In this document: positions 21,818 to 37,188 of the stretch, piece by piece | Position numbering within the stretch: position 1 is the stretch's first letter | Layout of the letters: the number at the start of each line of letters is the position of its first letter | Assembly: GCA_030432295.1 (NCBI GenBank) | Contig: JAUIHI010000004.1 | Span: 209,706 to 273,705 of the forward strand | Length of the DNA stretch: 64,000 nt | Direction of reading: 5' to 3' | Source of the DNA: Anaerolineae bacterium | Lineage (GTDB): Bacteria; Chloroflexota; Anaerolineae; Caldilineales; Caldilineaceae | Position numbers and translations under genes: made by a program | The notes under the pieces: generated by a model | What the model was told of the DNA's origin: nothing | Database searches by the model: none | The model's input: only the letters and a program-made list of their open reading frames with translations

Positions 21818-24800
21818 TTGGCTGAAGAAATTTCAATCCTCTCCTTTAGATTACTGGGGCAGGTTGCCCTATTCAAAGATGGAAAGCCCCTGGAGCAGTT
21901 TCGCAGCCAAAAAGAAGCCGCGCTGCTGATCTACCTGGCCCACACGGGAGAGAGCCATCCCCGAGATTTTCTGGCCGAATTGTTATGGGAAGACCGTACA
22001 ATCAGCCAGATGCGGGGGAATCTGCGCACCGTCCTCTCCCGCCTGCGCGAGCAAGTTGGTGACGCGCTGGTGGTCACACGCTCGTCCGTGGGGCTGGCAG
22101 AGGATAGCCGCCACCCGGTGGATTCGGTGCGTCTGCTCCAGGCGCTGATCAACTTTGGCCCGATCGGTTCGTCGGAAAAGGCCACGGCCCTCCAGAACCT
22201 GCTGACCGACTATCGGGGCGATTTTCTGGCCGACTTTTATCTGAGCGACGCGCCCCTCTTCGACAGTTGGACAACGACGACGCGCGAAGAAATTCGGACA
22301 CAAGTGATTGTCGCCTTTCGCAAATTGGCAGAGTACATTCTGGACGGTGGAGAGACCACCCAGGGCATCGCCATCGCCCGGCGCTGGCTCAAGGTGGATG
22401 AACTGGATGAAGATGCCCACATTCTGCTGATCCGATTGCTGCTGGAACAGGGCGATAGACCGGCGGCTGTCGCCCACTATCAGGCGGCTGTCCACCTGCT
22501 CCGTTCTGAACTGGATGTGGAACCGTCCCCATCCCTGTCAGGGTTAATCCAGCCTGCCCTGCCCACCCCTTCTCCACCAGCCCGCCATCTCCGGTCAGCG
22601 TCCCACAACCTCCCCCCCGCCTACAATCCATTCTTTGGCCGGGTGCGCGTCCAGCGGGAAATTCACAGCCGACTGGACCAGTCCTGGTGTCGGCTTGTGA
22701 CAATTGTGGGCCAGGGGGGTGTAGGGAAAACACGGCTGGCTACCGACATTGCCCGGGACCGGTTGGACCGCTATTCCGACGGTGCCTGGCTGGTGGATCT
22801 GGCAGAGGTAGAATCGGAGGACGAAGACCTGGCCGAAGCTATCGCCATCGAAATCGCCACCGCCATCGACCTGCGCCTGAGCGGCTCTGCCAGGCCAACC
22901 GAACAACTGCTCACCCATCTGCAACAGAAGCAAACGTTGCTGGTGCTGGACAATTTCGAGCATATCCTGGGCGGCATACAGATCGTTCTTGACATTCTGC
23001 AACGCTGCGAAGCCGTGCAATTGCTGGCCACATCCCGAGAGGCGTTGCACATCCGGGCCGAATGGGCCATCCCTCTGTTGGGGTTGGACTATCCCGACGA
23101 CGATAGGGAGGAGACTCCTTCCGACGCCGTCGACCTGTTTGTGGCCCGACATGCCCAACAGTCGCCGGGGCCACTCTCAGCCGCAGAGATGACCGCCATC
23201 CGCACCATTTGCCGCAGGGTAGAAGGGCTGCCCCTGGCGCTTGAACTGGCCGCCGCGCTGACACAGGAGACCCCAAGCCAGGAAATTGCAGCCCAGATCG
23301 AGAACGATTTTGACAAGTTGACTGCCTCTCTGCGCGATGTACCGGAACGCCACCGCAGCCTGCATATTGTCTTCGAAATGTCCTGGGGCAGACTGTCGGC
23401 GGACCTGCGGACCTGCCTGGCCCAACTGGCGATCTGTCGCGGCGGCTTTGCCCCTGACGCAGCCCAGCAGATTGCTCAGGCCGATGCCCGTCACCTGGAC
23501 GCGCTGCAACAAAAGTCCCTGCTGACCTACAGCCCAGAAGCCGACCGCTACACGCTCCATTCGGTGGTGCGTGCCTATGCCGCGGCCAAGCGTCCAGCCG
23601 AAGACCCCACGCCCCACAGACACGCCGAGTATTACCTATCTCTGCTGGCTGCCCACGCGGACCCCTTGCAGCGCGCAGCGCCCCAGAAGTCTGTGGCGCT
23701 GCTTCTGACCGACCTGGACAATATACGCCTGGCCTGGCAGACCGCGCTGGCCGAGCGCACAGCCAAGCGACTCGCCCCTGCGTTGCCGGCGATTTCGACT
23801 CTCTATCAACTGCGTGGGCTGGCCCGTGAGGCCGAGGACGTGATGCAGGCCACAGCCAGCGCAGCAGCAGAATGGGGTGCAAGCGGCCTTCCCCTGGCGG
23901 CGCGGGCTGGACTGGAACGGGCGCGCTTCCAAAATCGGCTGGGACGCTACCGGCCGGCCATTGAGACAGCCCAACGGGCAGTGGCATTGGCGGAGAGAGT
24001 CAATGACCGCTGGGCAGACGGTATGGGCCACATCCTGTGGGGTGAATCTCTGTGGCGGCTGGGGGAGTACGCAACTGCCCGGCAGCAGCTGACCCACGCC
24101 CTCGCCCTTGCAGAAGGGATGGCCCCAGAGAGTGTCCAGGCGGAGGATGCGACCCAAATTGTGGGCTGGTGTCACCATCACTTGGGCATCATCGACGACA
24201 TTCAAGGCCGCTATGCCAGCGCCCTCGACCATTTGCAGCAGTCATGTGCCGCGTGGCAGACAATCGATAACGCACAGGCGTTGAGCAACAGCCTCAACAG
24301 CGTTGCCATTGTGCGCTATCATCAAGGCGATCTGCCAGCAGCCCAGCAGGCCATGGAACAAGCCCTGGCAATCGGTGAACAGATCGATGACCGCCATCGC
24401 CAGGCAAACCTGATCAACAACCTGAGTATGATCGCTACTGAACAGGGCAATTATGCGGATGCCCACTACTATTTACAGCAGGGGCTGAACCTGGCTGTGG
24501 CGGCCGGGGATGTCTATGTGCAAGGAGTTCTCTATAACAACCTGGGTAAAAACTATCGTCTGCTGGGTGATTTCGATGCTGCCGAGGAAGCATTGGCCCA
24601 GGCAATGCAGATTGTGGAGCCAATTGGTGATCCGATGTTGCGGGCGACTGCGCTATTCTATCTGGCCGACACGAAACAAGCGCGCGGAGAGAGCAAAGAG
24701 GCCGAGTCCTACTATCGACAAGCGTTGGAAATCGCACGGCGGGACAAGCTGGAGTACATTGCGTGTGAAATTTTGATCGGCCTGGCCGGGCTTTGGCGTG

Positions 24801-24904
24801 CCACAAAGGCCGCCCAGGCCAGAGAATATGCAGCCCAGGCCATTGCGTTGGCAACGAAACTCAAAAATCCTGAACTGCTGAAGCGCGCACAGGCCATTCA
24901 TTGA
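21818..24904 (+). CDS. SARP-type transcriptional regulator with NB-ARC and TPR domains
   Basis: 1028-aa AfsR-like regulator. Residues about 8-100 form the winged-helix DNA-binding domain (FRLLGQVALFKDGKPL, then RGNLRTVLSRLRE). Residues about 100-245 are the bacterial transcriptional activation domain (WLKVDELDEDAHILLIRLL). The STAND ATPase follows, with Walker A VGQGGVGKTRLA near 295 and Walker B TLLVLDNFEHIL near 372. TPR repeats fill about 640-1020 (for example YNNLGKNYRLLGDFDAAEEA). The start is TTG 21818, the first possible start after the in-frame stop of the DUF6807 gene at 21806. SARP proteins bind direct heptamer repeats; two such sites lie downstream at 25178 and 26413. The activating ligand is unknown. 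Confidence 0.88.
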   Translation: MAEEISILSFRLLGQVALFKDGKPLEQFRSQKEAALLIYLAHTGESHPRDFLAELLWEDRTISQMRGNLRTVLSRLREQVGDALVVTRSSVGLAEDSRHPVDSVRLLQALINFGPIGSSEKATALQNLLTDYRGDFLADFYLSDAPLFDSWTTTTREEIRTQVIVAFRKLAEYILDGGETTQGIAIARRWLKVDELDEDAHILLIRLLLEQGDRPAAVAHYQAAVHLLRSELDVEPSPSLSGLIQPALPTPSPPARHLRSASHNLPPAYNPFFGRVRVQREIHSRLDQSWCRLVTIVGQGGVGKTRLATDIARDRLDRYSDGAWLVDLAEVESEDEDLAEAIAIEIATAIDLRLSGSARPTEQLLTHLQQKQTLLVLDNFEHILGGIQIVLDILQRCEAVQLLATSREALHIRAEWAIPLLGLDYPDDDREETPSDAVDLFVARHAQQSPGPLSAAEMTAIRTICRRVEGLPLALELAAALTQETPSQEIAAQIENDFDKLTASLRDVPERHRSLHIVFEMSWGRLSADLRTCLAQLAICRGGFAPDAAQQIAQADARHLDALQQKSLLTYSPEADRYTLHSVVRAYAAAKRPAEDPTPHRHAEYYLSLLAAHADPLQRAAPQKSVALLLTDLDNIRLAWQTALAERTAKRLAPALPAISTLYQLRGLAREAEDVMQATASAAAEWGASGLPLAARAGLERARFQNRLGRYRPAIETAQRAVALAERVNDRWADGMGHILWGESLWRLGEYATARQQLTHALALAEGMAPESVQAEDATQIVGWCHHHLGIIDDIQGRYASALDHLQQSCAAWQTIDNAQALSNSLNSVAIVRYHQGDLPAAQQAMEQALAIGEQIDDRHRQANLINNLSMIATEQGNYADAHYYLQQGLNLAVAAGDVYVQGVLYNNLGKNYRLLGDFDAAEEALAQAMQIVEPIGDPMLRATALFYLADTKQARGESKEAESYYRQALEIARRDKLEYIACEILIGLAGLWRATKAAQAREYAAQAIALATKLKNPELLKRAQAIH

Positions 24905-24992
24905 GTTATTGGCAAAGGTTCCGCGCGGCTCCACCACCCATCCTCCTTATTGTCCTCGCTGGTTCTTCGATTATTCTCCAAAAAATTTAGTG

Positions 24993-25158
24993 TTCCCACC
25001 GCTTTTCTGTATTGGTCAGGTAGATGTTGAAACTTAACGCAAAGTCGCAGGGACGCAAAGGGCGCAGAGAACAGCTTTGCATCTTTCGATCTTTGCGCCA
25101 TTGCGTTGAGGATCGGCAGTTCAAGCTGTTGTTGACCAATACAGTTCCTACCACTTTT
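24993..25158. mobile_element. MITE-like element with 12-bp TIRs and 14-bp near-direct repeats
   Basis: Terminal inverted repeats CTGTATTGGTCA (25007-25018) and its exact complement (25133-25144) bound 138 bp. Immediately outside are near-identical direct repeats TTCCCACCGCTTTT (24993-25006) and TTCCTACCACTTTT (25145-25158), 12 of 14 matching, as expected of an old target duplication. Inside is a second imperfect palindrome (AACGCAA at 25036 against TTGCGTT at 25102). There is no coding capacity. With the SARP-type site this accounts for the 370-bp gap between the regulator and the NB-ARC gene. Confidence 0.55.
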
Positions 25159-25177
25159 CGTGGCTAAAGCGCCACTT

Positions 25178-25210
25178 GGAAGCGCTTTGGAAGCGTTCAC
25201 TCCCTATACT
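25178..25210 (+). promoter_or_regulatory. SARP-type operator/promoter 1
   Basis: GGAAGCG at 25178-25184 and again at 25189-25195 (7-mer, 4-bp gap, 11-bp period), then 9 nt, then TATACT (25205-25210) as the -10. No good -35 hexamer is present; in SARP promoters the repeats occupy that region. Expected transcription start is near 25217. Confidence 0.7.
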
Positions 25211-25274
25211 GAATATCATCCCCGTCGCAGCCGCTGAACATAAACCGCGCAGATACGCAGATTTCAAATCATAC

Positions 25275-26360
25275 GTGAGAGCCATTCTTGTGGTCGGTCC
25301 CGATTCCCCTCTTCCGCCGCGCGCACGGCCAGCGTCCACCCATAACCTGCCCCCTGATTTTGATCCCTTCATCGGGCGCGAGGAGGAACGCCGGGAGATC
25401 CACGCCAGCCTGGACCAGCGCTCAACCCGGCTTGTCAACCTGTGGGGAATGGGTGGCGTGGGCAAGAGCCGCCTGGCAATTGCCATCGCTCAGGAACGTC
25501 TGCACCGCTACCCGGAGGGTGTCTGGCTGGTGGAGCTGGCGGAGATGAAGCCGGGCAAGCTGGACCAGACCAGGGAAATGGCGGTAGCTATCGCCGCTGC
25601 CCTGCAGCTACCCTGGCGGGAGGGTGCGAACGCCAAAGCCCAGTTGCTCGGTCATCTGGCAGGGCGACGGACACTGCTGGTGTTGGACAGCGTGGAGCGG
25701 TTGGCCGGGGATGGCCTGCCCTTCCTCGTCTCTGTGGCCGAGCGCTGTCCCGGTGTGGACCTGCTGGCGACCAGCCGGGACGCACCGCCGCCCGGCCTGG
25801 GCCCCACCTTTCCTTTGACCGGGCTGGCCTATCCACCCAGCCACAACGACAATGACAATGACGACGACAATGACAAGCAGCCATGGGAAGCGGTGGAACT
25901 CCTGACGGTTCGCCGCGCCCAGCACTGTTGGGCGCCTCTTACCCGGGCCGACCAGAGGGCCATCCGCCGCATCTGCCGACTGGTGGAGGGGCTGCCCCTA
26001 GCCCTGGAACTGGCCGCAGCCCAGACCAAACAGATGAGTCTGCCGGAGATCGCCGCCGCCCTCGAAAGCGGTCTGGAGATACTATCTTCCCCTCTGCGGG
26101 ATACACCAGCCCGCCAGCGTAGCCTGGCCGCGGCCCTGGCCGATTCCTGGCAGCGTCTGCCCCCGGACCTGCAAGGATGTCTGGCCCGGCTGGCCGCGCT
26201 GGACGCAGAGTTCAGCGCGGCCACAGCCCGACGCGTGGCAAGGGCAACACCGGGGCAGCTTGCCGCTCTGTGTAACCGATCCCTGCTGATACACCAAGTG
26301 TCGGAAGACCTTTACCGGCTGCACCCAGCAGTGCGGACTTTCATAGAGCGGAAAGAGTAG
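25275..26360 (+). CDS. NB-ARC ATPase, paralogue of the SARP regulator's central domain
   Basis: About 361 aa from GTG 25275. It is clearly homologous to the NB-ARC part of the regulator at 21818: HNLPPDFDPFIGR beside HNLPPAYNPFFGR, Walker A WGMGGVGKSRLA, Walker B TLLVLDSVERL, and LVEGLPLALELAAA. It lacks the DNA-binding, BTAD and TPR domains, so it is either a partial duplicate or a stand-alone ATPase modulator. The frame is open up to 25176, but that would place codons inside the predicted promoter; GTG 25275 is the first start after the predicted transcription start and has no clear ribosome site. A run HNDNDNDDDNDK, from a GACAAT microsatellite, interrupts the fold at a variable loop. Confidence 0.65.
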   Translation: MRAILVVGPDSPLPPRARPASTHNLPPDFDPFIGREEERREIHASLDQRSTRLVNLWGMGGVGKSRLAIAIAQERLHRYPEGVWLVELAEMKPGKLDQTREMAVAIAAALQLPWREGANAKAQLLGHLAGRRTLLVLDSVERLAGDGLPFLVSVAERCPGVDLLATSRDAPPPGLGPTFPLTGLAYPPSHNDNDNDDDNDKQPWEAVELLTVRRAQHCWAPLTRADQRAIRRICRLVEGLPLALELAAAQTKQMSLPEIAAALESGLEILSSPLRDTPARQRSLAAALADSWQRLPPDLQGCLARLAALDAEFSAATARRVARATPGQLAALCNRSLLIHQVSEDLYRLHPAVRTFIERKE

Positions 26361-26412
26361 GAAAGTCTCATTGCACCTGCTCGCTTCCACTTCTGCGATG
26401 CCCCAGCGCTGT

Positions 26413-26445
26413 GGAAGCGTTTTGGAAGCGCTGGCTGAGTACACT
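26413..26445 (+). promoter_or_regulatory. SARP-type operator/promoter 2
   Basis: GGAAGCG at 26413-26419 and 26424-26430 (again an 11-bp period), then exactly 9 nt, then TACACT (26440-26445). An inverted copy CGCTTCC sits at 26382-26388. It lies in the leader region of the secreted metalloprotease gene (ATG 26644), with an expected leader of about 190 nt. Confidence 0.7.
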
Positions 26446-26643
26446 GGGTGATAGATCCTATAACAATAGAAATAACCCACTTGTCAACCGCCCGATGTCT
26501 GAAAGTAACCATCCGTCTACTTACAGAGATAAATCGTGTGTAATACCTTATGTCAGGATACGCGTGGTGATGGAACATCCCTTGTCCTCTGTACTCGGCT
26601 TTCATTGCTCTTTATTTTAACTCTGACCAAAAGGAGATTCTCT

Positions 26644-29600
26644 ATGCACCAAAGAATATCCGTTACCATATGTACGTTGGCTTCGTTGTTCGCATTATTA
26701 GTCCTTACCGTGGCGGTCAGCCCCGGTATCACCCAGAGTGCCTATGCTGATACTTTTGCCAGCATCTCAGCCAGGACGATGAACAGCTTCGCAGGTTCGC
26801 TCATCCTGACCAGTCACGGGCCGATGCCCCACGCTGTGGGTGTAGACATGGGCCAAATCATCACGGCGACATTCAGTTCGGACGTAAACGCGGGCAGCGT
26901 GACCACCCACACCTTCACTGTGCGCAGCAGTCTGCGTGGCCTCTTCACCAGCACGGCCACAGTCAGCGGCGCTACCATCAGCGTAGACCCCACCCGTAAC
27001 TTCTTTACGGGTGAGCAGGTAGAGGTGGTAGGCACGTCGGGAGTCCAGGGGACGAATGGGGATACGCTCGCGCCTGTCCAGTGGAGTTTTCGTGCGGGTG
27101 CGGTGACGAATCGATGTGTGGCAGGCTTCACGGACATCGGCGCGTCCATCGCCAACATCGACTTTGGCAGCGTGGCCTGGGCCGACTACGACGGCGACGG
27201 CGACCTGGACATTCTGCTCAGCGGCCGCACGGCCAGCGACGACTCGGATGCAACGCTCATCTACCGCAACGACGGCGGCGGCAACTTCACCGACATCGGC
27301 GCGGGGCTGGTCGGTCTCAAATGGGGCAGCGTGGCCTGGGGCGACTACGACAACGACGGCGACCCGGATGTGCTGGTGACAGGCACCGAAGGAGCGACCA
27401 ACACCAACAACAGCATACCCGTCACCCGCCTCTACCGCAACGACCGCGGGACTTTCGTCGAGGTCAACAGTGGCATCGCTGGCTACTGGCAGCAGAGCGC
27501 TGTGGCCTGGGGCGACTACGACAACGACGGCGACCTGGACATTGTGCTGGCCGGTCGGGGTAGCGATGCCCGCATCTATCGCAACGACGGCGACGATACA
27601 TTCAGCGACATTGCTGCCGGTCTGCCAACCCTGTGGATGGCCAGTGTTGACTGGGGCGACTATGACAACGACGGCGACCTGGACCTGCTGCTCACCGGTG
27701 AAGTAGCCAATACAAATACATTTGTCAGCCGGGTCTACCGCAACGACAGCAGCGCATTCACCGACATCGGCTCCGGACTGGCAGGGGTCAGGCGCGGCAG
27801 CGCCGATTGGGGCGACTTCGACAACGACGGCGACCTGGACATCCTTCTCACTGGCGCAGTCAGCGCCAATTCCTATGGATCATTCATCTATCGCAACGAC
27901 GGTGGTGGGGTCTTCACTGACATCAACGCTGGCCTGGTTGCCATCCACAACAGCGGCGTGGCCTGGGGCGACTACGACAACGACGGCGATCTGGACGTGC
28001 TCTGGGCCGGCGCGGACAACAATGTGCAGGCAGGCATCCACCGCAACAACGGCGACGGCACATTCACCAATATCAACGCCGGTTTGCAGAAGGTCAACTA
28101 CGCCGCCGTGGCCTGGGGCGACTACGACAACGACGGCGACCTCGACATCCTCCTCACCGGTCGCGTCACCAACATCGTCTTCGTGGCAAAGCTCTACCGC
28201 AACGACGACTGTGGGGCAACCTCGACGCCTACCCCGACGCCCACGCCGAGCCGCACGCCGACGCATACGTCTACAGTGACGCCCACGCCGAGCAGCACAC
28301 CGACGCATACATCTACAGTGACGCCCACGCCAAGCAGCACACCGACGCATACCTCTACAGTGACGCCCACGCCAAGTAGCACGCCGACGCATACATCTAC
28401 AGTGACGCCCACGCCAAGTAGCACATTGACAAGTACGCCGACGGCTACGCCCACGCCAAGTAGCACGCCGACGAATACGCCTACGGCCACGCCCACGCCC
28501 ACGCCCACGGGCAATTTAACCATCCGGCGCGTGGAAGTCTCTCAGGCGATTCAAGACACCAATAACAGTGTGCCTCTGGTGCGGGGACGTCCGGCTGTGG
28601 CCCGAGTCTATGTGGAGAACGCGGGTACCAGCCCGGTATCGGGCGTAGAGGTGCTGTTGCACGGATCCAGCGGCGGCGTGGCCCTGGCGGGTTCGCCCCT
28701 GCATCTGACAAACCAGACAATCCCGGTGGATATTGTAGAGACAAACCTGGCCCATACTATCAATTTCAACCTGCCCGCCGGCTGGCTCAGCAATAGCATG
28801 CTGACCCTGCGGGTCGAAATGAAGTTGCCGGGCAGCCAGCGCGCTGGGGACCAAAGCGCGAGTCTGAGTAGGGAGACGACCCTCCAGGTGGTTGCTGTAC
28901 CCTCTCTGGAGGTGGTGCTTATCCCCATCGCCTATCAACACAAAGGCCAGGGCACTATCTACCGGCCTAATATCAATGCTGACAATGTCTTCGGTCTCAA
29001 GGGGCTGAAGGAGGTCTACCCCATTCCCGGCGTCACCATCACGCGGCACGAGGAATACTACTTCGATGGCGCGTTGGGCAGTGCTCTCTCCGATGCTTCG
29101 GGCGATGACTGTGGCAAGGGTTGGAATGATCTTCTAGGTGAATTGAGCAATCTGCGGGTACAGGAACGGCCCAGGGAAAGCTCTTGGGGCAACCCCACTG
29201 TACGGCCTCTCTACTACGGCGTCCTACCTATGGAAGCCTCCTGTTGGGGCGGTCTGGCCTATCGACCTGGTGCCGCCGGTATGGGCCTGGTGGATCAATA
29301 CCTAGTGGCCGCCCACGAAGTTGGACACAATTTGGGCTTGCGCCACATTGAGTCCAGCGTCTGCGGCGCTTCTCCCGCCAAACCCGATGCCAGCTATCCC
29401 CATGCCCAATCCAGCATCGGGTATGTCGGGTTGGATGTGTTCTCCATGCGCACCTACGATCCGGCAATCTATCGAGACTTCATGTCCTACTGTTGGCCTC
29501 AGTGGGTATCGGACTTTGGCTACAAGAAATTGATGAATGTGATGACTGGCAGCCTGGCGCAGGCCCAGAGTCTGGCCGATCAGAACACAACGGACGAGAC

Positions 29601-30468
29601 AGTTCTGCTGGTCTCCGGTGAGATTTCCGGGACAGCCAAAACCGGCGACCTAGGTAACGCCATCCAACTGGAAACAGATGCGGTGGTGACGGTTCCCGGT
29701 GCGGGCAATTACAGCCTGAAGCTGAAATCCGCCGATGCTACCATCCTGTTCGACTACGCCTTTGAGCCGGTGGATTCTTCGGAAGGCGATGAACTTCCCC
29801 TGGGCTTTGGCTTCAATGTTCCAGCCCATGCCGGTCTGGATCGCATCGAACTCTGGTATCAGAATCAACTGCTGGATACGCTGCTCGCCAGCGCTACGCC
29901 TCAAATCTCTGCCACCTTCCAACTGGATGGCGAATCCTTCACCGTCAGTTGGACAGTTCAGGGCACGCCGGATGTAGCCATTTCCCTGCGCTACAGCGCA
30001 GATGGCGGCTCCACCTGGAAGGTACTGGCCCAGGGACTCACAGGCAATAGTTTCAGCGGTTCCAAGAGTGCGCTGTCGGCTTCTCAAAATGGTCTCTTGG
30101 AAGTAATCGCGGTGGACCGCACCACCAAAGCCAGCAAATCACTGGAACTTGGCCCGGTCTCGGACAAAGCTCCCTCGGTCGGCATCGATCTGGAGGATCC
30201 GTTACGAGTAAATGTCGGCCAATCGGTGCTCTTGACCGCCGTGGGCTTCGACTTTGAGGACGGATCCCTGCCCGAGACAGCCTTTACCTGGAGCGACGCC
30301 GCCGGGAAGGTACTGGGCACAGGCAGCCAACTGGAGCTGGCGAACGGCCTGGCTTTCGGCGAACACACCTTCCGTGTGACAGTGCAGGATTCGGCCAACA
30401 ACAGCGCCAGCGATAGCATTACGATCCAGGCGGGTGAGCGTATCTACTTGCCTTCTATCAACAAATAA
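26644..30468 (+). CDS. secreted FG-GAP/VCBS propeller protein with metzincin metalloprotease domain
   Basis: 1274-aa exported protein. A signal peptide covers about residues 1-36 ([15 protein letters not shown], cleavage near AYA-D). An Ig-like Big_5-type domain covers about 45-155. Seven or eight FG-GAP/VCBS repeats follow at about 160-520, each with [13 protein letters not shown] calcium-binding loops. A Thr/Pro linker of 14-residue repeats comes next (about 525-622), then a CARDB-like domain (about 625-760). The protease part has [13 protein letters not shown] near residue 890, the HExxHxxGxxH metzincin zinc site, and a Met-turn DFMSYC near 945. Ig-like domains follow and the protein ends [14 protein letters not shown] 26644 has AAGGAG upstream; the frame to 26536 is only leader. 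Likely an extracellular protease under SARP control. Confidence 0.88.
28220..28509 (+). repeat. 42-bp tandem repeats encoding a Thr/Pro linker
   Basis: About six copies of a 42-bp unit coding [14 protein letters not shown], the later copies drifting to [13 protein letters not shown]. They form the linker between the propeller and the protease half of the protein at 26644-30468. Confidence 0.9.
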
Positions 30469-30681: not shown

Positions 30682-33138
30682 ATGAACCGTACCATTCCCA
30701 TTGTCACTCTCACCACGGCATTGCTGCTGGGGTTGCTGTTCTCTGTGCTGAATACCGACCAATCCCAGGCCACAGCCAATGACGTCAGTTGGGAGTCGCT
30801 AGGACCTGAAGGTGGACCTGTGAACGTTCTGGTGGTCCATCCCACCACACCCACAACCCTCTACGCGGGGACAAATGCTGGCGTCTTCAAAAGCACCGAC
30901 AGCGGCGCAACCTGGGCATCCGCCAGCAACGGCCTGACTTCTACTCAGATTGACGATCTGGTTATTGACCCAATCACAACGACAACCCTCTATGTCGGAA
31001 CATCTGGTGGTGTATTCAAGAGCATCAACGATGGTGCCAATTGGCTCGCGATGAATACAGGTTTCCCAACTGGCACCAATCCAGTCAATGCGTTGGCGAT
31101 CGATCCAACTGCGCCCGCCACGCTGTATGCGGGCACCACTCGCGGTGAGTTATTCAAAACCACTGATGGCGGGGCGATGTGGAGCGAAGTATTCAATAGC
31201 AATACCCAAAATTGGGGCATTGTGGTTAATCCCACCGCCCCCGGCACGATTTATGCCGCCATGTGGGGCACTGGCGGCGGTGTGTTGAAGAGTACGGATG
31301 GTGGGGCGACCTGGAATCCGGTGAACAGTGGCTTGAGTAACACCAGCGCCAAAGCTTTGGTGATGGACCCTTCTCAAACAAACACACTCTACGTGAGTCT
31401 AAATGGAGCAGGAATCTATAAGACCACCGACGGTGGAAGCAACTGGACCCAGATAAACAGCGGTCTGGGTACGCTTGGGCGCTATGCGACAGCGCTGGCC
31501 ATTGACCCACAAAATGCCAGTACAATATATCTGGGCGCACCGGATGATGGAGTGTACAAAACCATGGATGGCGGTGCGAATTGGAGCAAACTCAACAACA
31601 GCCTAAGTTATTTTGGAGTGAAAATCAACCATCTGATGGTTGATCCCGCCGCCTCGACAACCGTGTATGCCGGGATGAATGACGGTGTGTATAAGAGCAC
31701 TGACAGTGGCAACGGCTGGGTCCAGACTACCAAAGGACTGAATAACATCTCAATTCAGGACATGGAGATTCATCCGACCATATCTACCACCATCTATGTT
31801 GGAACCGGTAGCAACGGCGTATACAAGAGTGTCGATGGAGGCATGAGCTGGAGCGACATAAACAGCGGTTTGACCAATCCCGTAATCTACGACCTGGCGA
31901 TCGACCCCATTACGACTACAATTCTCTATGCTGCGACCGGAGGCAACGGTGTCTTCAAAAGCAGCGACAGTGGGGAAAACTGGAACTTGGCCAGCCAGGG
32001 ACTGCCTTTCAACCCCTTTGTTCATGTATTAGCGATTGATCCAAAGACACCAACCACCCTCTATGTCGGCACACCTGACGGTGTGTACAAGAGCAGCAAC
32101 GGTGGGGCGAACTGGGCTATGACCAGCAACGGGTTGCCCAGCAATCCGTGGGTATACAAGCTGGTAATTGATCCGAGTACGACGACGACTATCTATGCCG
32201 GCACATCCGTAGGTATGTACAAGAGTACCGATGGCGGAAGCAGTTGGAATGCCATCAACAACGGTCTACCCCCATCAACTGCGATTAATGGGCTAGCCAT
32301 CGATCCAACCAATCCCTCTACCCTTTACCTGGGCTACTATGCCGGTGTCTACAAAAGCAGTGATGGCGGAGCCACCTGGAGCGCTGCCAACCAGACATCG
32401 AACTTCGTCTACATCTATTCTCTGGCCATCGACCCAAGCACACCTTCTACTGTATACGCGGGGTCCTCTGGCAAAGGTGTATTCATGAGCACTGACGGTG
32501 GGATAAGCTGGAATGCCGTCAACGGTGGGCTGAAGGATTCCTACGTCAACACTTTAGCCATTCACCCGGCTCAACCTGACACTGTTTATGCTGGCACGCT
32601 CGGCAGCGTATTCAAAGGGACGGTGGGCGGCACACTAGCAATCACAGATGGCAACGGCGACGGCATCCCCGACGACCAGCAGGCGAATGTGGAGACCTTC
32701 CGCAGCGAGACGGGCAATGCGGTGACGCTGGCTGCCCCAGCGGGCGTGATCCTGAGCAACGTGCAGGCGATGCCCCCCACGGTGGCCCCGCCTGCCAATG
32801 TGGGCCTGCCCCAGGGGCTGATCGGCTTTGAGGCCGCAGGCATCAGCGCTGGCGGCAGTATGAGTATTACGCTCATTTTGCAGCAGGGAGCCACCGCCAC
32901 CAGCTACTGGAAGTACGGGAAGACAGTGGACAATCAGACCGATCATTGGTACGAGTTCCTCTTCGACGCGGTCAGCCAGACTGGTGCCATCATCAACGGA
33001 CGCACGATTACCCTCTACTTTGTAGACGGGCAACGGGGCGACAGCGACCTGACCGCCAACGGTGTGATCACTGATCCCGGCGGCCCAGGCGGTGTGACTC
33101 TGGACAACTTCGTCTGGTTGCCGATGATGCAACGGTAG
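30682..33138 (+). CDS. secreted BNR/sortilin-type beta-propeller protein with choice-of-anchor U domain
   Basis: 818-aa exported protein. The signal peptide (about 1-32, TALLLGLLFSVLNTDQSQA) is closely similar to that of the gene at 33865. Residues about 40-650 are some fourteen BNR-like repeats with the pattern TTLYAGT, GVFKSTDGGATW, typical of Ycf48/VPS10-type propellers. Residues about 655-800 (DGNGDGIPDDQQANV, YWKYGKTVDN, LYFVDGQRGDSDLTANG, then DPGG) match the choice-of-anchor U domain seen at C termini of surface proteins. The protein ends NFVWLPMMQR. ATG 30682 has AGAGGAGAA upstream. It is probably attached to or displayed on the cell surface; its ligand is unknown. Confidence 0.87.
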   Translation: MNRTIPIVTLTTALLLGLLFSVLNTDQSQATANDVSWESLGPEGGPVNVLVVHPTTPTTLYAGTNAGVFKSTDSGATWASASNGLTSTQIDDLVIDPITTTTLYVGTSGGVFKSINDGANWLAMNTGFPTGTNPVNALAIDPTAPATLYAGTTRGELFKTTDGGAMWSEVFNSNTQNWGIVVNPTAPGTIYAAMWGTGGGVLKSTDGGATWNPVNSGLSNTSAKALVMDPSQTNTLYVSLNGAGIYKTTDGGSNWTQINSGLGTLGRYATALAIDPQNASTIYLGAPDDGVYKTMDGGANWSKLNNSLSYFGVKINHLMVDPAASTTVYAGMNDGVYKSTDSGNGWVQTTKGLNNISIQDMEIHPTISTTIYVGTGSNGVYKSVDGGMSWSDINSGLTNPVIYDLAIDPITTTILYAATGGNGVFKSSDSGENWNLASQGLPFNPFVHVLAIDPKTPTTLYVGTPDGVYKSSNGGANWAMTSNGLPSNPWVYKLVIDPSTTTTIYAGTSVGMYKSTDGGSSWNAINNGLPPSTAINGLAIDPTNPSTLYLGYYAGVYKSSDGGATWSAANQTSNFVYIYSLAIDPSTPSTVYAGSSGKGVFMSTDGGISWNAVNGGLKDSYVNTLAIHPAQPDTVYAGTLGSVFKGTVGGTLAITDGNGDGIPDDQQANVETFRSETGNAVTLAAPAGVILSNVQAMPPTVAPPANVGLPQGLIGFEAAGISAGGSMSITLILQQGATATSYWKYGKTVDNQTDHWYEFLFDAVSQTGAIINGRTITLYFVDGQRGDSDLTANGVITDPGGPGGVTLDNFVWLPMMQR

Positions 33139-33812: not shown

Positions 33813-33864
33813 CCTGTTGTAGTGTGATTGCAAAGGCATATTGCCCCAGTTCAAGGAGAATTCG

Positions 33865-36800
33865 ATGAACCGCTATGTTCCCATAGCCACATTATTCGCA
33901 GCCCTGCTATTGGGTATTCTGGCATTCGCGCTGAATACCGCCCAGTCCCATGCCACAGGCATTGACACAGGCAGCAACCAACCCAGCCTGGATATGTCCA
34001 CCAATTCAGAGGTTGCTCCCACATCTGTCCTCAGTACTTCCCAGCAGGTCTATGTCTTCAGTAGCGGTAACACCACCACAGACCAGCGCATCCTGGAAGT
34101 ACTTAGCTCGGGAGGATTCAGCCCAACGCTTGGGATACAACCCGGCGAATTTACAGGCTCACAGGTCGACTTGACTCTGTTTGCCGCGGTTGTGCTGCAA
34201 CACAGCCACAACTGGCCCAATAGCATCTTACCCGTGGCGGGCGAAAACAGTCTGGTGGAGTACGTGCAAAATGGCGGTGGTCTCGTCACTGCCGAGTGGA
34301 TTATCTGGCGCTATGGCTCCTTAGGCACTTCGACTTCGCCGATTTCCGCCATCTTGCCCGCCACATATACATACTGCTGTGGGGGGGCTGATACTACTTA
34401 TGTTGTTGATACGCCGGACGCAGTCATCAATGCAGGCTTGCCAAATAGCTTTGATTTGAAATTGACTACTCTCGGCGGTTATGAGACTGGCCTTGATCCC
34501 AAACCAGGGGCCACCGCATTCTATAGCAGCACTACGACAGGCCACAGCGGGTTGGTTGGCTGGGAAATCGGCACGGGTCGCGTTGCCAGCTTCTCCAACT
34601 TGATGACCAGTGTTGAGCTAGCAAGCGCTGACCTGGCAAGGCTACTTAACAATACTGTGAACTGGGTGGCGGGCCAGTCTTCCCTCCCCAACCGCATCTT
34701 CCTCTCCAAAAAGGTGGGGCTGGATGGGAGCTGTGATCGCTTTCGACTGAATATGACAGCGGGCACGGAAGTAACCTATTGTTACGAAGTGATCAATCGC
34801 AGCGCCCTGACCCTTACACAGCACACCCTCACCGACGACAAGCTGGGCACACTGATCAACAACGCAGCCTTCACCCTCACTACCGGTGAGAGTTCGCGCT
34901 TCACCACGACCGCAGTCATTGACGCAGACACGCTGAATGTGGCGACCTGGACTGCCCAGGACGCAGCGGGAACTGTGATTTCAGATACGGCCCAGGCCTA
35001 TGTCTCCATCGCCAAAACGGATTTGATGGTCTATAAATCCGTCTACGCTCCCTCGATTGTGGCGGGAGACGAGCTGACCTACTACATTTACTATCGCAAC
35101 AAGTCCAGTGTGGCCGCCCAGAATGTGGTGATCAGCGACACCCTGCCGACGGAATTGACCTTTGTCAACTCAGGTGTGCATTGGACAGTTGGTTCCCAAT
35201 CTGTCGTCACCCAAACCAACGGCAATGTGGCCTTGTGGACCATATCCAATCTACCGGCCTGGTCCTATGGTCATTTGACCCTCACAGCCCGTGTCGCGGA
35301 TACAGCAGCCATCGATACAACCATCAGCAATCCGGTGACGATCCGTTCCAGTACAGATGATGCAAATCCTGCTGACAACAGCTATACCCATACGGCTCAG
35401 GTGAAAGCGAGTACACGCGACCTCGCGATTGAGAAGCGGGTTTACGGTTCCCCACAGCCAGGAAACACCATCAACTACTACATCTACTATCGAAACATCG
35501 GCAACCGCACCGTCGATAATATTCTCATCACCGACACCCTGCCCAGCGGCCTAACGTATCAATACCACTACGACTACAATCGTGGCACGACTATGCAGAC
35601 TGTCGGTGACGATCTGGTCTGGTCCCTTGGCTCTTTGGGGCCGTATCGCACGGGCTATCTCTATCTGACCGTCAACGTGACCGATACGGTAACGGCAGGT
35701 ACGGTTCTGACCAACGCTGTCCGCATCTCCGGCGCAGGAACAGACGTAGACCTCGACAACAATTCCGATGTGGTCACAAGCACTGTGATTGTCCCCGGTC
35801 GTATAACCGGAACTGTGGCGATGGACGACGGCACACCCCTGCAATGGGCTACCGCCTATGCCTATCAGAATACGCCGCCCTATGCCCGGGGCTGGGCACG
35901 GACCGATGCCAGCGGCCAGTACGACATTGGCGGCCTGCCCGCTGGCAACTACTTCGTCTATTTCTACAGCCAACTGGGCAACGAAGTCTATGACGATGTG
36001 ACCACCACCGTCAGCGCCACGCTGGTAAGCGTGACTTCCGGCCAGATCACACCAGACATCAATGCCCGCTTCGCTCCGCCAGCGCCACCAAAGGCGTCGG
36101 TCGACGCTGGCAACAACTACGTATATGTTGACCCCAGAACCGGTGAATCGCGCATCTGGATCAACCGCAGCAATCCATCGGATCTGACCATCTCCAAGGT
36201 GATTACCTGTAGCGGCAATATCACCCCAACCAATGTGACACTGGTGTTCGAAACGACCAGCAGTGGAACGTACGAATATCCTATGACGGGCAGCGGAGAC
36301 ACCTACACAGCGACGATTCCTGCCGGTGACCTGACCCGCGGCACGATTGCGGTTGATTATGAATGTGACGGCACCGAGGTCCATGAGGTGGTCGGGCACG
36401 GCCTGATCGACCCCAGCGGCTTCATCACCGATTCAGAGACGGGCGACCCCATTGTGGGCGCTACTGTCCAGCTATTCACCATTGATGGCTGGGTGCCAAA
36501 GACCGGTCCTGCGGATACTCGACCCAACACCTGTCACACCGTCGATAGCCGTCCGTCGGTCTGGAACGATATGCCGCCTGCGCCGCTGATCGGTCGCCTG
36601 GGCAACCCCCTGGCCGATCCCCAGGAGATCGACCCGGTCCAGAACCCGCTGCTGACGGACAACACTGGCTACTACGCCTGGGATGTGGCCGCAGGTTGCT
36701 GGTACATTGTAGTCACAGCGGACGGCTACGAAACCCGGATCAGCCCCGTTGTGGGTGTCCCGCCAGAGGTCACCGATCTGCACCTGACGATGAAGAAGAT

Positions 36801-37188
36801 CGGCTCTGCGGAAGTCTCCTTCGGCAAAGCCAGCTACACGGCCAGCGAGAATGGCGGCACTGTGCTGATCGACCTCATCCTCAGTGACATCACCCAATCG
36901 GATGTGACTGTGACCATCGCCAGCAGTGATGGTACAGCCCAGGCAGGCAGCGACTATACCGCTATCAACAGTACTGTGACCATCCCGGCAGGTCAACCTT
37001 CCGCCAGCGTGAGCATTAGCTTGCTCGACGACGACACCGTTGAGGGCAACGAAACCCTGACTTTGACACTGAGCAATCCTGTCAACGCCAAACTCGGCGC
37101 GATCAGCAGTGCAACGCTGACTATTGCCGATGATGACAAAGCGGCTTCGCTTAACTATCCCATCTATCTGCCGACTGTAATCAGGTAA
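33865..37188 (+). CDS. secreted multi-domain DUF11/CNA-B/Calx-beta protein
   Basis: 1107-aa exported protein. The signal peptide (about 1-32) resembles that of the BNR gene: MNRYVPIATLFAALLLGIL. Residues about 55-255 (QQVYVFSSGNTTTDQRILEV) look like a glutamine-amidotransferase-like fold as in ThuA/DUF4350 proteins. Residues about 280-640 hold DUF11-type repeats (YTYYIYYRN-like strands, then TDTLPSGLTY). A carboxypeptidase-regulatory/CNA-B-like domain starts near 644 (GRITGTVAMDDGTPL), another near 845, and a Calx-beta domain covers about 982-1092 (ASYTASENGGTV, SDYTAINSTVTIPAG). It ends YPIYLPTVIR. ATG 33865 has AAGGAG upstream. It is a structural or adhesive surface protein by composition. 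Confidence 0.85.
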   Translation: MNRYVPIATLFAALLLGILAFALNTAQSHATGIDTGSNQPSLDMSTNSEVAPTSVLSTSQQVYVFSSGNTTTDQRILEVLSSGGFSPTLGIQPGEFTGSQVDLTLFAAVVLQHSHNWPNSILPVAGENSLVEYVQNGGGLVTAEWIIWRYGSLGTSTSPISAILPATYTYCCGGADTTYVVDTPDAVINAGLPNSFDLKLTTLGGYETGLDPKPGATAFYSSTTTGHSGLVGWEIGTGRVASFSNLMTSVELASADLARLLNNTVNWVAGQSSLPNRIFLSKKVGLDGSCDRFRLNMTAGTEVTYCYEVINRSALTLTQHTLTDDKLGTLINNAAFTLTTGESSRFTTTAVIDADTLNVATWTAQDAAGTVISDTAQAYVSIAKTDLMVYKSVYAPSIVAGDELTYYIYYRNKSSVAAQNVVISDTLPTELTFVNSGVHWTVGSQSVVTQTNGNVALWTISNLPAWSYGHLTLTARVADTAAIDTTISNPVTIRSSTDDANPADNSYTHTAQVKASTRDLAIEKRVYGSPQPGNTINYYIYYRNIGNRTVDNILITDTLPSGLTYQYHYDYNRGTTMQTVGDDLVWSLGSLGPYRTGYLYLTVNVTDTVTAGTVLTNAVRISGAGTDVDLDNNSDVVTSTVIVPGRITGTVAMDDGTPLQWATAYAYQNTPPYARGWARTDASGQYDIGGLPAGNYFVYFYSQLGNEVYDDVTTTVSATLVSVTSGQITPDINARFAPPAPPKASVDAGNNYVYVDPRTGESRIWINRSNPSDLTISKVITCSGNITPTNVTLVFETTSSGTYEYPMTGSGDTYTATIPAGDLTRGTIAVDYECDGTEVHEVVGHGLIDPSGFITDSETGDPIVGATVQLFTIDGWVPKTGPADTRPNTCHTVDSRPSVWNDMPPAPLIGRLGNPLADPQEIDPVQNPLLTDNTGYYAWDVAAGCWYIVVTADGYETRISPVVGVPPEVTDLHLTMKKIGSAEVSFGKASYTASENGGTVLIDLILSDITQSDVTVTIASSDGTAQAGSDYTAINSTVTIPAGQPSASVSISLLDDDTVEGNETLTLTLSNPVNAKLGAISSATLTIADDDKAASLNYPIYLPTVIR

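Follow-up and report, generated by a model that had tools for sequence, protein, structure and literature searches.

Two tandem-heptamer sites in a Chloroflexota genome (Anaerolineae, Caldilineaceae) are very probably operator-promoters of SARP-A, an AfsR-like SARP encoded just upstream of them; binding and activation at these sites are inferred. The pair was found in the window, that is, the whole stretch of 64,000 nucleotides that was analyzed, and exemplifies a broader pattern in which other SARPs have a heptamer of their own in the same geometry. The features involved are listed in Table 1.

Table 1. Features of the SARP-A locus and of related loci in other genomes (coordinates refer to the window unless a locus is named)
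Feature	Position	Strand	Basis or remark
SARP-A, AfsR-like (winged helix, BTAD, NB-ARC, TPR)	21818..24904	+	Pfam, AfsR match, domain model
Operator 1, GGAAGCG at 25178-25184 and 25189-25195	25178..25195	+	Exact match; conserved in ortholog-carrying genomes
-10-like hexamer TATACT	25205..25210	+	Exactly 9 nt past operator 1
NB-ARC-only protein, GTG start assumed	25275..26360	+	45% identical to NB-ARC part of SARP-A
Operator 2, GGAAGCG at 26413-26419 and 26424-26430	26413..26430	+	Exact match
-10-like hexamer TACACT	26440..26445	+	Exactly 9 nt past operator 2
Secreted FG-GAP propeller protein	26644..30468	+	ATG 26644 after AAGGAG; longer ORF from 26536
Protein of ~550 aa without Pfam match	L134:1664-3304, L129:2354-4063, L138:2314-3993		Divergent from GGAAGCG operator

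The original prediction described tandem GGAAGCG heptamers with an 11-bp period, each pair followed after 9 nt by a -10-like hexamer, and this arrangement was observed exactly at both sites. It also called the two operators (GGAAGCGctttGGAAGCG and GGAAGCGttttGGAAGCG) identical, which is true of their heptamers, spacing and -10 offset but not of their 4-nt spacers, which differ at one base. The absence of a normal -35 was borne out, as no sigma-70-like -35/-10 pair was found in positions 24850-26700. In the whole source genome (6.72 Mb), GGAAGCG-N4-GGAAGCG occurred only twice, both times at this locus and on the same strand, whereas a backwards-read control of the genome contained no exact pair and 0.05 copies were expected under a uniform model. 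The scan of the source genome for the composite motif had been set as a refutation test, which the prediction passed, the motif being confined to this locus. When two mismatches were permitted, finding two matches in the window was unremarkable (this was reached in 23 of 100 shuffles), so the evidence rests on the exactness of the match and on the count for the whole genome. Searching the source genome with three mismatches gave equally many matches in the reversed control; only one extra match (C34:63699) was informative, and it proved to be a paralog's TGAAGCG operator. An inverted repeat (CTGTATTGGTCA ... TGACCAATACAG) flanks ACGCAAAGTCGCAGGGACGCAAAGGGCGCAGAG-type text at 25007-25146, in the interval that separates the SARP gene from operator 1, and this segment looks like an interspersed repeat element.

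The gene upstream of the sites was expected to encode a SARP-NB-ARC-TPR protein, and Pfam domains BTAD, NB-ARC and TPR_12 were detected in its product. SARP-A is a member of the large AfsR-type SARP family, in which an OmpR-type winged helix is followed by BTAD and a C-terminal NOD (NB-ARC) and TPR part; the recognition-helix contact residues and the 11- or 22-bp period of the direct repeats also meet the criteria for this family. Its alignment with AfsR was nearly full-length (residues 3-975, phmmer). An AlphaFold2 model of the SARP domain (pLDDT 91.8) had AfsR (8k60, E 1.6e-10) and EmbR (2fez, E 8.2e-08) as best structural matches. AfsR recognition-helix residues R87, T88, S91, R92 and R94 are retained in SARP-A, and K95 is replaced by E. 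DNA binding and activation by SARP-A are inferred by analogy with AfsR.

AfsR of Streptomyces coelicolor, which has been characterized by cryo-EM, is the closest known system. Two of its SARP domains bind repeats of the afs box side by side over the -35 element and engage sigma region 4, and its NOD and TPR parts are inhibitory, an effect relieved by ATP (PMC10936776). SARP-A has the same winged helix-BTAD-NOD-TPR organization over nearly the full length, the same SARP-domain fold and five of the same recognition-helix residues, and its sites likewise consist of two direct repeats with an 11-bp period that overlap the -35 position. However, AfsR uses a CGTTCATCG-type repeat located 8 bp from the -10, whereas the SARP-A heptamer is GGAAGCG and the distance is 9 nt; in addition, AfsR targets afsS, whereas SARP-A, in a Chloroflexota host, is predicted to control an NB-ARC protein as well as secreted proteins. 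PimR and other SARP-LAL regulators of Streptomyces also have heptameric direct repeats with 4-nt spacers, and their binding requires two heptamers (PMC5930380). They differ from SARP-A in the repeat (CGGCAAG, often in three copies), in their association with antibiotic clusters and in the C-terminal half of the protein. EmbR of Mycobacterium tuberculosis shares the SARP-domain fold but contains an FHA domain where SARP-A has NOD-TPR (PMC10936776). A 2024 review considered SARPs to be exclusive to Actinobacteria (PMC10972967), and no report of a SARP operator outside this phylum was found in our literature search, which left most subscription journals uncovered.

The distance to the -10 was analyzed with 20 sites that were collected by heptamer only (at most 2 mismatches), without use of the -10, and aligned on the heptamers. 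In 14 of these sites, TAnnnT followed the second heptamer at a distance of exactly 9 nt, compared to 0-4 sites for any other offset between 0 and 29; without the two sites of the window, the count was 12 of 18. Information across the 20 sites was near background outside the motif and the -10. How far the commonest gap observed here departs from the 8 bp of Streptomyces depends on where the repeat is considered to end.

Conservation was assessed with an extended form of the motif, GGAAGCGYTNNGGAAGCGYT. Exact matches were present in 4 of 46 relatives (G000, G003, G015 and G017), and a full or near-full SARP-A ortholog above 50% identity was likewise restricted to these four genomes (split into two contig fragments in G003). 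The remaining relatives had paralogs of at most 40% identity, except for one 321-residue stretch at 53% in G025. Thus, all four ortholog carriers and none of the 42 other relatives had the motif. The site was located 125 nt (G003) and 82 nt (G017) from the end of the ortholog match. Among 396 genomes of the class, eight had an ortholog above 50% identity and seven had the exact motif; it occurred in 6 of the 8 carriers vs 1 of the 388 others (Fisher P = 3.8e-11, with the reservation that related genomes are not independent). Of the two other carriers, G262 had a site with one mismatch and G232 had a 2-mismatch site 6.7 kb downstream of the ortholog on the same strand; with mismatches permitted, the site was therefore present in all eight. 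A second refuting condition, loss of the motif from relatives in which the regulator is retained, was thus not fulfilled, and the motif is nearly absent elsewhere. Only 2 of 7 genomes in the genus of the source contained the ortholog and the site, so shared descent alone is insufficient to explain the match. Most of the genomes compared are MAGs, and absences are therefore soft. The co-occurrence of motif and ortholog supports the proposal of a self-contained SARP regulon outside Actinobacteria, although in the source genome this regulon comprises only two promoters.

A scan of 84,980 species genomes identified 16 stretches with the exact motif, nine of which were from Chloroflexota, among them Kouleothrix (Chloroflexia), which lies outside the source class. 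Six Chloroflexota genomes from this list were searched for SARP-A, and four had orthologs with 47-59% identity (one of them partial). The other two, G103 (the same as G388) and G108 (J038), had the exact motif without an ortholog above 50% identity; in the former, the promoter of a SARP whose N-terminal domain is 43% identical carries a site with two mismatches. Seven stretches were not from Chloroflexota, and most of these, having neither a -10 at +9 nor a close SARP, were regarded as chance matches. One Actinobacterial sequence, from Microtetraspora, contains three tandem GGAAGCG heptamers with an 11-bp period, 8 nt before TAGCGT (L067:6237-6265). They precede a gene for a secreted carboxylesterase-like protein; at a distance of 1.6 kb, the opposite strand has a SARP gene whose product differs in its recognition helix.

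With regard to target genes, an NB-ARC gene and a gene for a secreted metzincin/propeller protein had been predicted behind the sites. Both are present, but the Reprolysin-like match in the FG-GAP protein is weak (20.0 bits, under the Pfam cut-off of 22). The order SARP, operator, NB-ARC-only gene recurs in G219, a member of another family. Proteins behind the site in relatives contained Sortilin/BNR, cadherin-like, Fib_succ_major, DUF11, PMP-repeat, lactonase-propeller and carboxypeptidase-regulatory-like domains. Signal-peptide-like starts, which were assessed by visual inspection and a crude hydrophobicity score with no dedicated predictor, were observed in most predicted targets in relatives but not in one VWA protein. 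The idea that the motif lies upstream of secreted proteins thus held in most cases, the exception in the source genome being its non-secreted NB-ARC target. Downstream of the site 2 target, the same strand encodes two more large extracellular-type proteins, one with Sortilin/BNR (30682-33138) and one with DUF11/Calx-beta (33841-37188) domains. A protein of ~550 residues without Pfam match (NFYEESLWTGRLTSFTESINANLRLLRVI) is encoded divergently from a GGAAGCG operator in three genomes.

Operators of other SARPs were searched for in a motif-blind manner, in which any exact heptamer repeat followed by TAnnnT was counted around SARP genes and circularity was avoided. The sample consisted of 106 other SARP loci (769 kb) from related genomes, which are hence not independent. 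At a period of 11 and an offset of 8-11, the count was 36, roughly tenfold that at other periods. Fixing the offset yielded 48 composite matches in the SARP loci vs 2 in a control of 400 kb of SARP-free stretches from the same genomes; matches were counted as distinct match strings, whose number is close to, but not exactly, that of sites. Most of them preceded the SARP start by 50-700 bp and were oriented away from the SARP gene. A strict site was missing in 76 of the 105 SARPs having enough upstream sequence.

Different groups of SARPs had different heptamers, including TGAAGCG, GGGTGCG, CGCTACG, CCACGCG, GTTCACG, CGTGACG, CTGATCG and others, and 39 of 61 entries ended in CG. When only adjacent sites were considered, the heptamer was common to 29 of 35 pairs with DNA-binding domains more than 60% identical. 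Covariation of heptamer and DNA-binding domain was observed overall (r = -0.47; none of 5000 permutations was as low). No significant correlation was found below 50% domain identity, nor with one representative per 50% domain cluster (r = -0.08). Because the trend is not significant between groups of less than 50% identity, the data establish group-specific words and not a readable residue code. A first covariation run (r = -0.68), in which GGAAGCG had been assigned by hand to all SARP-A orthologs, was partly circular and was not relied on. These results suggest that in Chloroflexota the heptamer, typically NNNNNCG, is specific to the SARP group and is set in an 11-bp/9-nt frame, with the promoter usually facing away from the SARP gene.

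Individual groups were also followed. A search for the TGAAGCG form in 46 genomes found 11 sites in 8 genomes and no control matches. One of these sites, in G006, was new. It precedes by 154 bp a SARP that belongs to the expected group, its N-terminal domain sharing 78% identity with the corresponding domain of the source genome's TGAAGCG-group SARP. SARP-B, a second SARP adjoining the SARP-A ortholog in G015, G232, G408, G104 and G109, is associated with a GGGTGCG site of its own; this pair occurs once in each of these genomes and in G219 but was not found in G000, G003 or G017. SARP-B had been considered as the GGAAGCG binder, given its position between SARP-A and the operator in G015. This candidate was rejected because of its own GGGTGCG site and because G000, G003 and G017 have GGAAGCG sites without GGGTGCG pairs. 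In three loci (L058:15188, L129:7183 and L130:8434), the GGGTGCG promoters of SARP-B face into the 3′ end of SARP-A with no clear ORF. It is possible that they produce an antisense transcript by which SARP-B acts on SARP-A.

Other regulators could in principle use sites of this kind. OmpR/PhoB-type regulators also bind tandem repeats with a period of ~11 bp beside the -10, and SARP DNA-binding domains are themselves of the OmpR type. Moreover, PhoP of Streptomyces also recognizes the AfsR site (PMC10972967). However, the heptamer varies with the SARP group and the sites adjoin SARP genes, and no receiver-domain regulator was found among the window proteins scanned (relatives were outside that scan); we regard response-regulator boxes as improbable. 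A role as LacI-family repressor operators is less plausible still. Sites of this family often have a AAGCGCTT-type core in common, and AAGCGYT is present in all four heptamers of the window, but complementarity around CG is low and heptamer-dependent (mostly 1-4 of 6), leaving the criterion of a CG-centered palindrome unmet. In addition, GGGTGCG, GTTCACG and CGCTACG have the same geometry without that core, and both position and heptamer track SARP genes.

That the sites are not operators at all but part of a repeated element or a recent duplication is the least credible explanation, even though repeat-like text bounded by an inverted repeat (25007-25146) lies nearby. The two promoter regions have only the ~19-bp motif in common, which argues against recent duplication, and information in the 20-site alignment is at background beyond the motif and the -10. 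Just two copies exist genome-wide, and conservation across genomes within unalike flanks contradicts this explanation. Finally, the SARP could bind here and repress rather than activate, as the sign of regulation is without any measurement. There is little to recommend repression, since an operator in place of the -35, with no normal -35, is the layout of a SARP-activated promoter (PMC10936776).

If the sites are operator-promoters of SARP-A, two SARP domains would bind side by side to heptamers one helical turn apart, replacing the -35 as in AfsR, and would position RNA polymerase, together with sigma region 4, over the -10 hexamer that lies 9 nt beyond them. Gating of this step by nucleotide or ligand is expected of the NB-ARC/TPR part of SARP-A. 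SARP-A would then switch on the NB-ARC-only protein and the secreted propeller protein, with transcription starts that are likewise inferred. The NB-ARC-only protein might also feed back on SARP-A via the shared NB-ARC domain, an inference that is speculative.

Operators of the SARP type seem to function beyond Actinobacteria, mainly at genes for secreted proteins, with binding and activation inferred. Their geometry was recovered in Caldilineaceae, other Anaerolineae and Kouleothrix, with words that differ between regulators. We lean, with little margin for certainty, toward a broader reading: Chloroflexota genomes have dozens of AfsR-like SARPs, each group of which reads a private NNNNNCG tandem heptamer at an adjacent promoter, usually that of a secreted protein, and thus forms a set of modular switches with NB-ARC-only feedback partners at some loci. 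If true, this set could allow a SARP recognition code to be worked out. For a large number of regulators that have not been studied, the sites also provide target genes that can be tested. In addition, they offer natural variation from which DNA selection by SARPs can be learned, and they are candidates for orthogonal switches. That the targets are secreted repeat and propeller proteins suggests that these NOD-type sensors govern what the cell displays to, or releases into, its environment.
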